Shown here one piece after another: positions 12,738 through 57,640 of a stretch of DNA of 64,000 bases. The stretch comes from an uncultured Mycoplasmatota bacterium (lineage in GTDB: Bacteria; Bacillota_I; Bacilli_A; RF39; UBA660): contig CANSRH010000006.1 of NCBI GenBank assembly GCA_947649365.1, positions 1-64,000 of the forward strand. Direction: 5' to 3'. Below the pieces are notes generated by a model. The model was not told the origin of the DNA and did not search any database. It saw only the letters and a list, made by a program, of their open reading frames with translations. Every line of letters begins with the position of its first letter. Positions within the stretch are counted from its first letter, which is position 1. The position numbers and the translations under genes are program-made.

Positions 12738-12757
12738 AAAAACACCTCATAAAAAAA

Positions 12758-12828
12758 GTGCACACGAACAGAGACTGATATGGCTGCTATCTTCCGATCC
12801 TGACCAGATTACAATATATTCGTTGCAC
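12758..12828 (-). ncRNA. ffs: Signal recognition particle RNA, small bacterial type
   Basis: Minus strand GTAATCTGGTCAGGATCGGAAGATAGCAGCCATATCAGTC domain IV core; terminal pairing GTGCA-ACGAA / TTCGT-GTGCAC; followed by T7. Confidence 0.88.
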
Positions 12829-12864
12829 ATTCAAATAATAACACAATTATATAATTTTGCAACA

Positions 12865-48678: not shown

Positions 48679-48969
48679 ATGAATCAAATAGTAATAACAA
48701 GAATAAAAGAAGAAGCGATTTATCTAATAAAAACAGAAAAAACCATTCGCGAAGTGGCAAAAGATTTTAAAATAAGTAAAAGTACATTACACAAAGATAT
48801 GCAAAAAAGATTAAAAGATATTTCTCCTCAATTAAACGAAAAAGTACAAAAAATTTTAAAAAAGCATAAAAAGGAAAGACATATAAAGGGAGGAATAGCA
48901 ACAAAAGCACTCTATGCACAAAAGGAGAAAGAAAATGAAAAAAAGAGAATTTATAATCAATGTTTGTGA
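48679..48969 (+). CDS. spoIIID: Sporulation transcriptional regulator SpoIIID
   Basis: TIREVAKDFKISKSTLHKDMQKRLKDISPQL...HIKGGIATKALYAQKE. Confidence 0.95.
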   Translation: MNQIVITRIKEEAIYLIKTEKTIREVAKDFKISKSTLHKDMQKRLKDISPQLNEKVQKILKKHKKERHIKGGIATKALYAQKEKENEKKRIYNQCL

Positions 48970-49534
48970 TAGCAATTTTTTACTTTATGATAAAACAAAA
49001 GAAGAAACCATTAGTAAAGATTTTAAAAGTTTAAAAGAAGATCAAATAATCAACAGTGAACTATTAAAAGAAGAAATGTCTCTTTTATTAAAACAAAATC
49101 ATATTCATATTCCTCTTTTTGGTTGGGACGTAACTTTTATAAAAAGTCAAAAATTAAATCCAATTATGACAGAAAAATACAAAGAAATATTTTCAGATTA
49201 TTTTCGTAAAATAAAAGAAGTAAATATAGAAGACATAATCAATTTTGAAAAAGATAGCAGTTTTTTAAATTTAACAGACAGCTATATTGATTATTATTTT
49301 TTAAAGAAAAATAAAAGTAAACTCATAAGAATACATCCAGAAATATTTAATGATAATTATAACAAAATAATAAATTATATTATTACAAATATTTATAAAC
49401 CTGAAAAAATGATAGTATTTGGAACTTTATCAGACATATCTAAATATGCGGAGAATATTAATAAAAATTATGGAATCAATGTAACATTTCCTGAATACCA
49501 TTCTCATTTTATAATAGAAGAATACAAAAAATGA
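48935..49534 (+). CDS. Hypothetical protein overlapping the spoIIID end
   Basis: Intact 199 aa ORF, RBS AAAGGAGAAAG, overlaps spoIIID by 35 nt; no family recognised. Confidence 0.6.
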   Translation: MKKREFIINVCDSNFLLYDKTKEETISKDFKSLKEDQIINSELLKEEMSLLLKQNHIHIPLFGWDVTFIKSQKLNPIMTEKYKEIFSDYFRKIKEVNIEDIINFEKDSSFLNLTDSYIDYYFLKKNKSKLIRIHPEIFNDNYNKIINYIITNIYKPEKMIVFGTLSDISKYAENINKNYGINVTFPEYHSHFIIEEYKK

Positions 49535-49602: not shown

Positions 49603-50328
49603 ATGATTAGAATAGTAGTTATTGAAGATGATAAAGACACACAAGCTCATATTAAAAAGATAATAAGAGAACTGGACTTTTTAAAAGAGGAAGAAATACA
49701 AATTGATTATTTCACAAAATATACAAATCAATTAAAAGAAATGATTATGGATACTACAGAACACAAAATTTATATAGTAGACATTAAGTTAGAAACAAAA
49801 GTTAGTGGTATCGATATAGCTAAATTTGTAAGAGAAAATGATTGGGAAAGTGAAATTATTTTTATAACGAATCATGATAAGATGTTTGAAACAGTTTATC
49901 GCAGTGTGTATGAAGTATTTGACTTTATAGAGAAATTCCATGAAATGGAGCAAAAACTTAAAAAAGATTTAAAAGTAATTTACAAAAGGAATTTTGATAA
50001 CAAAATGTTTAGATATAGAAATAATAACTTTAGTATACAAATTTATTATCGTTCTATTACTCATATTTATAGAGATAAAGAAACTAGAAAAATTATAATT
50101 AATACCAATAAAACAAATTACGCAATTATTATGCCTTTAACAGATATACTAAACTTCTTAGATGATAGATTCAGAATTGTACATAGAGCTTGTATCGTTA
50201 ATAACGATAGAGTAGAAGCTTATAATTGGTCAAAAGGTTTCTTTATGTTAGATACTGGAAAGAAAGTAGAAATGTTATCAAAGAAATATAAAAAGGAGAT
50301 TGAGGAATACAATGAACGAAATAATTGA
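49603..50328 (+). CDS. agrA: LytTR response regulator (AgrA-like)
   Basis: Receiver domain IRIVVIEDDKDTQ...IYIVDIKL and C-terminal LytTR domain; promoter TTGTAT...TATAAT. Confidence 0.9.
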   Translation: MIRIVVIEDDKDTQAHIKKIIRELDFLKEEEIQIDYFTKYTNQLKEMIMDTTEHKIYIVDIKLETKVSGIDIAKFVRENDWESEIIFITNHDKMFETVYRSVYEVFDFIEKFHEMEQKLKKDLKVIYKRNFDNKMFRYRNNNFSIQIYYRSITHIYRDKETRKIIINTNKTNYAIIMPLTDILNFLDDRFRIVHRACIVNNDRVEAYNWSKGFFMLDTGKKVEMLSKKYKKEIEEYNERNN

Positions 50329-51583
50329 CATTTTTTATTATGTTATAGCTATTTTTATTAGTATAACATTTTACAATATTTTTTATAGTAAAATTAATAG
50401 CAAAAAATTAGAAATTCAAAGAAAAACAATTATAATAATTTTTTGTGCAACAATATTGAATTTAGTAAACATACGGTACAGTCCATTAGCGATAAAAATT
50501 ATTTTTAATACTATATTGTTATGTATTGAACTAAAACTAATATTTAAAGACAACTGGAAAACTACAATAACAACTCATATTTTTATTTATTTGTTTTTAC
50601 AGTTATTAGAAATTATAATTACAAATTTACTATTATCTTTAAATATACTAACAAGTAATGATACTGCAAATTCATTAACTTTTATGAATCTATTTCTGAC
50701 AATTTTAATAAGTGTTATTGGATATATATTCTTTTTAATACCTATAGTGAAATTACTATTTCAAAAAGTTATCAATTTCTTTATAGAAAATCATACTACA
50801 TATAACATACTATATATAATTTATATTACTATTGTTATTTTAAGCTTAATAAATATACAGAATTTTGCAAATAGTAATTCTATTTCTCTAATATTTTTTC
50901 TATGTTTAGTATTTATAATTCTTTTTGTTTCCAATATAAAATTAATATATCATAGTGAAATATTAGAGGCATCTAATAAAAATTTGATAGATTACAATGA
51001 TAATTATGGAAAGTTTTTAGATGATTATAAAATATATAAACATAACATAAACCATAAATTATCTGCTATGAAATCCTATGGAAACAAAAAAATAAATGCT
51101 TTAATTGATGATTTATTACAAGAAGAAACAAATTTTAGTATTAAAAATAATGAATTATACAATATTCCAAATGGTATAAAAGGAATAGTGGCTAGAAAAT
51201 TGTATAATAAAGATTATAATATATTAATTAATAATAAAATAAAAAAAGACCCTTTTAGTAAATTAGAAGCAAGATCATTTAATAGTATATCCGAATGTAT
51301 AGGAATTGCATTAGATAATGCAATAGAAGCAAGTCAAGAGACAGAGGATCCAATAATAATTATGGACTTGTTTGAAGATAATAACAATTTATATTTAAAA
51401 ATAGGAAACAATTATTGCAATAGCATTGATTTAGACAATATAGGAAATAAATACTATTCAACTAAAAACCGTGGAAGTGGATTAGGATTATTTTCAATAA
51501 AACAAAATAAACTAGTAAAAGAAAAAATAGAAATTATCAATGATTTTTATTATATAGAATTACAAATAAAAAAAGCACGCTAA
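50312..51583 (+). CDS. agrC: AgrC-like sensor histidine kinase
   Basis: Multi-TM N-terminus, YKHNINHKLSAMKSY H-box, LDNAIEAS, RGSGLGLFS. Confidence 0.88.
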   Translation: MNEIIDIFYYVIAIFISITFYNIFYSKINSKKLEIQRKTIIIIFCATILNLVNIRYSPLAIKIIFNTILLCIELKLIFKDNWKTTITTHIFIYLFLQLLEIIITNLLLSLNILTSNDTANSLTFMNLFLTILISVIGYIFFLIPIVKLLFQKVINFFIENHTTYNILYIIYITIVILSLINIQNFANSNSISLIFFLCLVFIILFVSNIKLIYHSEILEASNKNLIDYNDNYGKFLDDYKIYKHNINHKLSAMKSYGNKKINALIDDLLQEETNFSIKNNELYNIPNGIKGIVARKLYNKDYNILINNKIKKDPFSKLEARSFNSISECIGIALDNAIEASQETEDPIIIMDLFEDNNNLYLKIGNNYCNSIDLDNIGNKYYSTKNRGSGLGLFSIKQNKLVKEKIEIINDFYYIELQIKKAR

Positions 51584-51603: not shown

Positions 51604-51723
51604 TTATAGCATTTCTTTTGGACAATCGGTTTCATCCCAAGCTAGTAAAAAAGTAAATGTAGATACACCATTATTCATAACTTTTGCCAAAGCTGATAAT
51701 GTATTTGAAAAAATAGTTGCCAT
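51604..51723 (-). CDS. agrD: AgrD-like cyclic autoinducer propeptide (39 aa)
   Basis: Not in ORF track. MATIFSNTLSALAKVMNNGVSTFTFLLAWDETDCPKEML; RBS AAAGGAGG; directly downstream of agrB; C-terminal DExxxPKE(M/L) as in staphylococcal AgrD (DEVEVPKEL). Confidence 0.88.
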   Translation of the reverse strand: MATIFSNTLSALAKVMNNGVSTFTFLLAWDETDCPKEML

Positions 51724-51777
51724 CAATAATCCTCCTTTCTTGTTTAAATATTTATATCAATAACATTTAAACCAATC

Positions 51778-52374
51778 TTAAAAATCTATATTTTTATAAT
51801 TATTATAAGAAATATGAAATAATTTATAGGTAATAGGACAAATACAAATAGCATTTAATAGAAATATAAAACCAATCACTTCTCTAATATTATGTTGAGA
51901 ACTATAAAAATAAAATAGTAAGAGAAAACTTGCTATTAGTAAAGCAATGCCTTTATTCATTATTCGTTTCTTTTTATTAAAAAGTGGTCTAGCAGGAGTA
52001 TCTGCTGGAGCCCAAAATAAAATAGCCAGTACCCCAATTCCTAGAAAAAGAAATAAAATTTTAGAAGGAACTGTCAAATATTTAATAATACTTGGAAATA
52101 AAATATAAACACCAATAGTAGTAATCCAACAATATATGTTTTTAGTGGCATGAATTCCAAAAGTAAATCCTCGAAGTATTCCGTAAAGAAATAAAAAAAG
52201 CAAAGTGATTTTAAACGTTCCTAAAAGAAAAGATAACAATAACACTACACTTATTTTAGTAACAAAAGAGTAAATAGATTCCAAAGTATAGCGAAATATA
52301 TTTATTTGACTTTCAGAACAAGCATTATTTTTCAATAAATAATTGATTGAAAAATTAACAAATTCTTCTTTCAT
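51778..52374 (-). CDS. agrB: AgrB-like accessory gene regulator protease
   Basis: LRGFTFGIHATKNIYC (catalytic His and Cys spacing), FWAPADTPARPL; promoter TTGAAA-N16-TATGAT. Confidence 0.93.
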   Translation of the reverse strand: MKEEFVNFSINYLLKNNACSESQINIFRYTLESIYSFVTKISVVLLLSFLLGTFKITLLFLFLYGILRGFTFGIHATKNIYCWITTIGVYILFPSIIKYLTVPSKILFLFLGIGVLAILFWAPADTPARPLFNKKKRIMNKGIALLIASFLLLFYFYSSQHNIREVIGFIFLLNAICICPITYKLFHISYNNYKNIDF

Positions 52375-52631
52375 ACTTTACCCACCCAAAAGAATCATAG
52401 CAATTATTTTAGGACTTTCAAAATAATTCGTATAAATAAAAAAATTTTTCGTTTAAAAGAAGAAAAAAGAATTTTTTTATTTTAAGAATATAACTTAAGG
52501 CAATAAATTGAGACAATAAAAACATAAAATAAATTTTTCTATCTGCGAAATTTGTCGAACGCATTTTGTTGTTTTGTAATTCCTTTCGGTGTTAAGGTTA
52601 ATACATGAGTAAGAAGGAGAGGTGCATAAAA

Positions 52632-53520: not shown

Positions 53521-54051
53521 ATGTTAGAGAATTTAACAACAGTAAATGTAGGATATGGTGAAATTGCTGATAAAAGAATTCATGGAAATTATAATGATTC
53601 AAACCATACAATTACACTTTATGAAAAGCATGATTTAAACACGGTTTTACATGAAACGCAACATGCAAGTGAAAATGACGATACCACTCTCTTTTGGCGG
53701 ATGAATGAAGGATATGCAGGAGCTTTGTGTGATGCATAGGGGTTTAAACTAACGTATCAAGATGAGAACGAGTATCTTTTGCTAATCAGTGAAGCAAATG
53801 AACTAGACAAAGAAATTAAAGAAACTCTTGCAGAATTAGCCATAAAAGCTGATGAAAATAACAAAGAAAATTTTATCATTTTAAATGCTTTATACAGCAA
53901 ATACAAATTAAACTCTTCTTTATTAGAAAATGAATACAATTATTCATTATATGGTTTAAACTTTGTTTATCCAATCACTGACAAAAATAAATACGATTAC
54001 GTTGATGTATTTGAACTTGTTTCACAACGTACAAAAATACACAATAAATAA
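53521..54051 (+). pseudogene. Degraded HExxH-containing protein fragment, interrupted by TAG at 53737
   Basis: ORFs 53521-53739 and 53779-54051 are in one frame, separated by a TAG codon; LNTVLHETQHASE; in-frame stop also lies upstream of the first Met. Confidence 0.7.
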
Positions 54052-56755: not shown

Positions 56756-57640
56756 TTGAAAAAAGATGAAGTAACAACAGAAATTATTGTTAAAGAAAAT
56801 AAAGTGGGAATTTTAAGAGTAGGTAATGTTAATTATATTTCATTAACAGATTTGGCTAAGTATCAAAATTCTAGTGATCCATCTTTTACAGTAAAGAATT
56901 GGTTAAGAAGGATTACAACTATTGATTACATTGGTTTATGGGAAGAAATTCACAATCCTGATTTTAATTTGGTCGAATTCGACCAAATTAAAACTGAGTA
57001 TGGTAGAAATTCTTTTGCAATGTCTCCATCTCAATGGATTAAAAGAACCAATGCAATAGGTATTATCTCCAAGGGTGGAAGATATAGCATTGGAACTTTT
57101 GCTCATCCAGATATTGCTTTTGAATTTGCTAGTTGGTTATCTCCAGAGTTCAAATTATATTTAATAACTGAATTTGAAAGATTAAAAACTAATGAAGCAT
57201 ATCAAGAAAAAATAGATTGGCAAGCTAATAGAATACTTTCAAAATTAAATTATGTAGTTCACACTGATGCAGTAAAAACTTATATAGTTCCAACTCTTAC
57301 TGAAGCTCAAAAGAAATTTGTATATGCAGAAGAAGCTGATGTTCTAAATGTTGCATTATTTGGTATGACAGCTAAAGAATGGAGAGATAATAATCCAGAA
57401 CTTGCAAAAGAAGGAAATATGAGGGATTACACTGATTTACTCCATTTAGTAATATTAAATAATCTTCAAAATACGAATGCTGAATTGATTGAAGAAAAAG
57501 TACCTCAAAATGAGAGATTAGTGAGACTTAACAATTCCGCAAGAAGACAAATGAAAGTATTAAAAGACAATAAGAATATCAAAGAATTAGAATTATTACA
57601 AAAACAAGTTAATGAAGAAAAAGAATTATTAATTGATTAA
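56756..57640 (+). CDS. KilA-N domain protein
   Basis: YISLTDLAKYQNSSDPSFTVKNWLRRITTIDYIGLWEEIHNPDFN...SGGRYSIGTFAHPDIAFEFASWLSPEFKLYLITEFERLK pattern; TTG start. Confidence 0.9.
   Translation: MKKDEVTTEIIVKENKVGILRVGNVNYISLTDLAKYQNSSDPSFTVKNWLRRITTIDYIGLWEEIHNPDFNLVEFDQIKTEYGRNSFAMSPSQWIKRTNAIGIISKGGRYSIGTFAHPDIAFEFASWLSPEFKLYLITEFERLKTNEAYQEKIDWQANRILSKLNYVVHTDAVKTYIVPTLTEAQKKFVYAEEADVLNVALFGMTAKEWRDNNPELAKEGNMRDYTDLLHLVILNNLQNTNAELIEEKVPQNERLVRLNNSARRQMKVLKDNKNIKELELLQKQVNEEKELLID

Follow-up and report, generated by a model that had tools for sequence, protein, structure and literature searches.

A predicted threonine-closed AgrD peptide in an uncultured family of gut Bacilli

AgrB is usually viewed as a Cys, and occasionally a Ser, cyclase. 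A 39-aa micro-ORF behind agrB in an uncultured Mycoplasmatota bacterium does not fit this view readily. We numbered its residues back from the conserved acidic pair that would follow the cut (D at +1, E at +2). Counted this way, residue −5 is Phe, hydroxyl residues stand at −6, −8, and −9, and the sole Cys lies in the C-terminal tail, as an earlier note on this DNA had correctly observed. Which residue, then, could close the ring of a signal peptide? The earlier note favored Ser21, at −9. We addressed the question in the window, the whole 64,000-nucleotide stretch of contig CANSRH010000006.1 that was analyzed, and in relatives of its host, which is known from metagenome assemblies only.

The agr-type cassette and its micro-ORF

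The locus contains the following features.

49603..50328 (+): agrA-like response regulator (Response_reg 1.8e-7; NCBIfam AgrA 2.6e-10, below cut-off)
50300..51583 (+): agrC-like receptor histidine kinase (GHKL domain 1.1e-11; start probably the ATG at 50312)
51604..51723 (−): agrD, 39-aa precursor MATIFSNTLSALAKVMNNGVSTFTFLLAWDETDCPKEML (ATG at 51723; stop ends at 51604)
51607..51636 (−): C-terminal recognition tail DETDCPKEML, which AgrB is predicted to remove (D+1/E+2 anchor; compare S. aureus D33/E34)
51637..51654 (−): predicted macrocycle T24-F-L-L-A-W29, with the T24 side chain joined to the W29 carboxyl
51661..51663 (−): Ser21 (−9), the nucleophile of the earlier note; by the counts at −9 given below, it more probably belongs to the leader or to an exocyclic tail
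51731..51738 (−): agrD ribosome-binding site AAAGGAGG, read directly, 7 nt before the ATG
51778..52374 (−): agrB, membrane peptidase/cyclase of 198 aa (PF04647, 1.4e-29)

The best explanation of the locus is an agr-type quorum-sensing cassette, in which an agrA-agrC-like pair on the (+) strand is convergent with agrB-agrD on the (−) strand. R68, G73, H75, and C82 of AgrB match R70, G75, H77, and C84 of S. aureus AgrB in order and spacing, and H75, C82, P123, and D125 were invariant in 176 of 176 family members (see below), consistent with a membrane peptidase that has a catalytic Cys and His. A sequence search of the PDB found no solved AgrB relative. The kinase gave a weak NCBIfam AgrC match (5.8e-5), and its gene occupied the same place in all genus loci long enough to show position. 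A LytTR domain was detected in the L143 orthologue of the regulator (2.7e-7) and fell below threshold in the window's own copy; together with the GHKL domain, the receiver domain, and the conserved synteny, it points to an adjacent receptor kinase and LytTR regulator. Throughout the genus, the cassette lies between spoIIQ-spoIIID (sporulation) and csp-hpf, and these flanks were also seen in other genera of the family, as far as their loci extend.

Some neighboring sequences are recorded here in their own right. Throughout the genus, spoIIID and agrA are separated by a conserved ORF, which in the window (48914-49534, +) encodes 206 aa and has no Pfam match. Between hpf and secA, an ORF at 53521-54051 (+) is interrupted by an in-frame TAG (53737-53739), after which the frame stays open to 54051, and may be a decayed gene. 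Just after secA, 56756-57640 (+) encodes a protein with a KilA-N domain (8.8e-18), a domain often found in phages. At gathering score, Rfam matched only a T-box leader at 2462-2649 (−) and a small SRP RNA at 12749-12834 (−). The genome (1.47 Mb, 43 contigs) has a single AgrB; another genus member (genome G004) has a second, divergent AgrB (locus L019, 53 bits), beside which no AgrD was recognized.

The micro-ORF has the strand, start, stop, and length that the earlier note had given. A TTG at 51726 is an alternative start and would add one residue, for a possible 40-aa product. The agrD start lies 54 nt beyond the end of agrB, and the small precursor has the leader, the core, and the charged acidic/Pro tail of an AgrD. 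It matched no Pfam or NCBIfam model (E ≤ 1; 0 families), as might a chance or decayed reading frame. However, the main agrB was found in 18 of the 22 genomes of our genus sample, and all 18 have the same micro-ORF behind it, preceded by an RBS comparable to AAAGGAGG. Because it is kept with its RBS behind the main agrB in every one of these genomes, agrD is not a chance ORF, and we regard that explanation as refuted by the comparative data, with next to no probability left to it.

The aligned genus sequence reads NNGVSTFT-xxxx-W-DETxCPEEML. A codon comparison across the 18 genomes gave a pN/pS of 0.42 overall, which again speaks against a chance frame; by part, the ratio was lowest in NNGVSTFT (0.09), intermediate in the tail (0.31), and highest at the four variable ring residues (0.87). 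Across the genus, T24 is encoded by the synonymous codons ACT, ACA, or ACG. At the codon level, this is what a diversifying signal inside a conserved precursor looks like. The comparison confirmed the proposal of the earlier note that 51604-51723 (−) encodes a real AgrD of 39 aa behind agrB.

Upstream of agrB we identified two boxes.

52448..52516 (no strand assigned): TTCGTTTAAA at 52448-52457 and TTGAGACAA at 52508-52516

Both are degenerate copies of a genus element, TTTAGACAA/TTGTCTAAA. This 9-mer, with at most one mismatch, occurred in 16 of 16 genus agrB upstream regions vs 2.3 in shuffles. It usually comes as two copies in opposite orientation and may be a candidate binding site of the AgrA-like regulator. 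A further element, TGCGAAnTTTGTCGAACGYATTTT, lies upstream of the cold-shock gene at about 52541-52570 and recurs at this position in no fewer than 11 of 17 genus loci.

Residue −6 across the family

A search of the family to which the bacterium belongs, followed by selected genera, gave 176 AgrB/AgrD pairs. The AgrD behind each AgrB was chosen by its RBS and acidic anchor, blind to the nucleophile residue. Thr-rich genera were added after the first pass, so the sample is enriched for Thr. Position −6 was Cys in 106 AgrDs, Thr in 54, and Ser in 11 (97% C/S/T); before the extra Thr-rich genera were added, the counts were 89 Cys, 23 Thr, and 6 Ser (n = 123). The five other residues at −6 all occurred in peptides with a Cys at −7. 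In the ring columns −5 to −1, C/S/T together made up at most 5% each. The earlier note had suggested comparing S21 with T22 and T24 among homologs; in the 176 relatives, the T24 column (−6) was the only one restricted to Cys, Thr, or Ser. For comparisons by nucleophile type, we excluded five rows with Thr or Ser at −6 beside a Cys, leaving 52 Thr types and 8 Ser types.

Within the genus of the window, −6 is Thr in 16 of 18 AgrDs, Cys in one (STYC-FWAAW), and Ser in one (SNFS-LFGSW). The window and 15 other genus members thus have Thr where a Cys thiolactone or Ser lactone would have its ring-closing Cys or Ser. Similar mixtures were seen elsewhere: the AgrDs read in genus g98 comprised 26 Thr and 3 Cys types, those in g95 comprised 1 Thr and 2 Cys types, and g120 mixed Thr and Ser. 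The Thr state required 12 changes on the AgrB tree, at least six of them forced by well-supported branches. Exchange among Cys, Thr, and Ser at −6 is recurrent within the family. The earlier note had also considered that relatives might have Cys or Ser at −5, marking this copy as mutated. That pattern was not seen; Cys and Ser stand at −6, with Thr prevailing in the genus. We likewise rejected Thr as a decayed Cys in the window copy, given that Thr prevails genus-wide and also in other genera.

The residue at −7 differed with nucleophile type: each of the 52 Thr types had F, Y, R, or E there, and most Cys types had A or G (97 of 106). Despite the size of this difference in the raw counts, independent-pair tests on the tree had too few pairs for significance. 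How the leader is trimmed, or the geometry of the ring, may account for it. We also looked for AgrB positions linked to Thr. Once relatedness was allowed for, none was significant among the 176 pairs; N79, S36, N140, and W83 gave striking raw counts of co-variation and were set aside, since the independent-pair tests, where run, had too few pairs.

Ring size itself seems to vary in this sample: a Cys stands at −7 in seven of the 176 AgrDs and at −5 in three, which would imply rings of seven and five residues. In the wider Bacilli, the few readable AgrDs had Cys or Ser at the equivalent of −5, although the search pattern required C/S/T, which makes their frequency uninformative. At locus L262, which belongs to a different family of the class, an AgrB is followed by a candidate AgrD with Thr at −5 (TWGGL before YQPQKPEKL), which suggests Thr-type signals outside the family of the window.

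Cut site, ring closure, and competing explanations

S. aureus AgrB cuts M32|D33, and D33 and E34 have been modeled as AgrB contacts (PMC10196373). The corresponding pair was conserved in our sample, with D at +1 in 161 and E at +2 in 173 of 176 AgrDs. By analogy, the cut most likely falls at W29|D30, just before D30-E31, and would leave Trp29 as the mature C terminus; the earlier note had reached the same end point, and the alignment of D30-E31 with S. aureus D33-E34 supports it. Because the cut is placed by the S. aureus site and by D/E conservation, the ring would comprise six residues, T24 to W29. A cut one residue earlier, before W29, would instead give a five-residue ring, T24-FLLA, which runs from T24 to A28 and has the commonest AIP ring size (PMC12312760, PMC10301443). 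We consider this improbable: D30-E31 align with the post-cut pair of S. aureus and belong to a near-invariant anchor, and the −1 column is hydrophobic like the other ring columns, with W in 16 of 18 genus members. Furthermore, six-residue AIPs are known and active in C. acetobutylicum (PMC10301443), and ring size, which the earlier note had raised as a possible novelty, is therefore not one.

We think it likely that AgrD yields a six-residue Thr lactone, T24-FLLA-W29, through ordinary AgrB chemistry with Thr in place of Cys. AgrB (C82/H75) would cut W29|D30 and keep the peptide as an acyl-enzyme thioester on C82. The T24 hydroxyl would then attack the thioester to form the lactone T24-F-L-L-A-W29. 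Some protease would trim the N-terminal leader, and the exported peptide would be sensed by the AgrC-like kinase. The sequences show the gene with its partners and synteny, purifying selection, the restricted −6 column, and an intact AgrB active site; from these we infer where AgrD is cut, that a lactone forms, how long an N-terminal tail it keeps, export, and signaling. In favor of a Thr lactone are the restriction of −6 to C/T/S, the exchange of Cys, Thr, and Ser there, the invariance of AgrB H75 and C82, and a ring interior that diversifies as a signal should. Against it, secondary alcohols are weaker nucleophiles than thiols or primary alcohols, and the −7 residue differs by type, so Thr peptides could be handled differently.

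The proposal of the earlier note was that Ser21 closes a nine-residue lactone, STFTFLLAW, like enterococcal GBAP, which is indeed a nine-residue Ser lactone (PMC12312760). All 18 genus AgrDs keep Ser21, but all of them keep V20 as well. Across the family, Ser or Thr occupied −9 in 97 of 106 Cys types and was absent from 18 of 52 Thr types; moreover, 14 of the 52 Thr types had no hydroxyl residue anywhere from −10 to −7, for example SVGDARTIWLVW-DEPTCP. Because Ser or Thr at −9 is equally common in Cys types, it is no mark of a substitute nucleophile. The distribution at −9 among the 176 relatives follows neither the nucleophile type nor the conserved Ser expected of a GBAP-type class, which leaves the nine-residue ring unsupported and, in our judgment, very improbable. 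Mass alone would not decide for an STFTFLLAW lactone closed at Ser21, since its isomer STF-[TFLLAW] has the same mass. Of the earlier note's reading, a residue five from the end that is neither Cys nor Ser, and a chemistry unusual for a spore-former, are supported; the Ser21 ring is not. A different objection is that no stable ester ring forms at all. The product would then be linear peptides or, after trimming before T24, a head-to-tail cyclohexapeptide formed by an O-to-N acyl shift. Listeria thiolactones that lack an exotail rearrange within minutes, and the O-to-N shift also occurred in a lactone analogue (PMC11297923); the difference at −7 between Thr and Cys types could be taken the same way. 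However, the A or G at −7 in Cys types is no less compatible with trimming, and this explanation leaves both the strict C/T/S at −6 and the repeated exchange among these three residues unexplained. We hold it to be unlikely, about as much so as the five-residue ring.

Relation to known AIPs and implications

The predicted Thr lactone shares features with several known systems. The C. acetobutylicum AgrD, with its six-residue AIP "R6T0," is likewise encoded in a spore-former by an agrBD pair with a separate agrCA and forms a six-residue ring (PMC10301443); ring closure there is through Cys, whereas a Thr lactone is predicted here. Hydroxyl nucleophiles in AgrB-made rings are found in the S. pseudintermedius AIP and in C. 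difficile Agr2, NSA[SSWVA] (PMC12312760), the latter being a Ser lactone on our reading of the ring sequence that the paper gives. Both differ in having Ser at −5 and a five-residue ring, rather than Thr at −6. Fsr/GBAP of E. faecalis is also a lactone signal from an AgrB-type peptidase (PMC12312760), with a nine-residue Ser ring, whereas the comparative data here point to a six-residue Thr ring. S. aureus agr has in common with this locus the R/G/H/C active site of AgrB, the cut before Asp-Glu, and the AgrC/AgrA partners. It differs in its five-residue Cys thiolactone; in the window, agrCA and agrBD are convergent, and AgrD falls outside the Pfam and NCBIfam models. As Ser lactones and six-residue rings are known, Thr as the predicted ring-closing residue is what remains new. 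A search of open-access papers, which takes in few subscription journals, turned up no Thr AIP.

Taken together, the comparisons suggest that a large uncultured family of gut Bacilli probably makes natural six-residue Thr-lactone AIPs, and that its AgrB took Cys, Ser, and Thr interchangeably many times. If true, this would be a signal class missed by thiolactone-trapping methods and, as far as our search reached, not reported earlier. Swaps of Cys, Ser, and Thr at one site, even within a genus, would amount to a natural experiment on what AgrB needs of its nucleophile. A search for AIPs that relies on Cys or on thioester trapping would overlook the whole set of such signals. The bacteria concerned here have sporulation genes, and their agr cassette lies beside spoIIQ/spoIIID.
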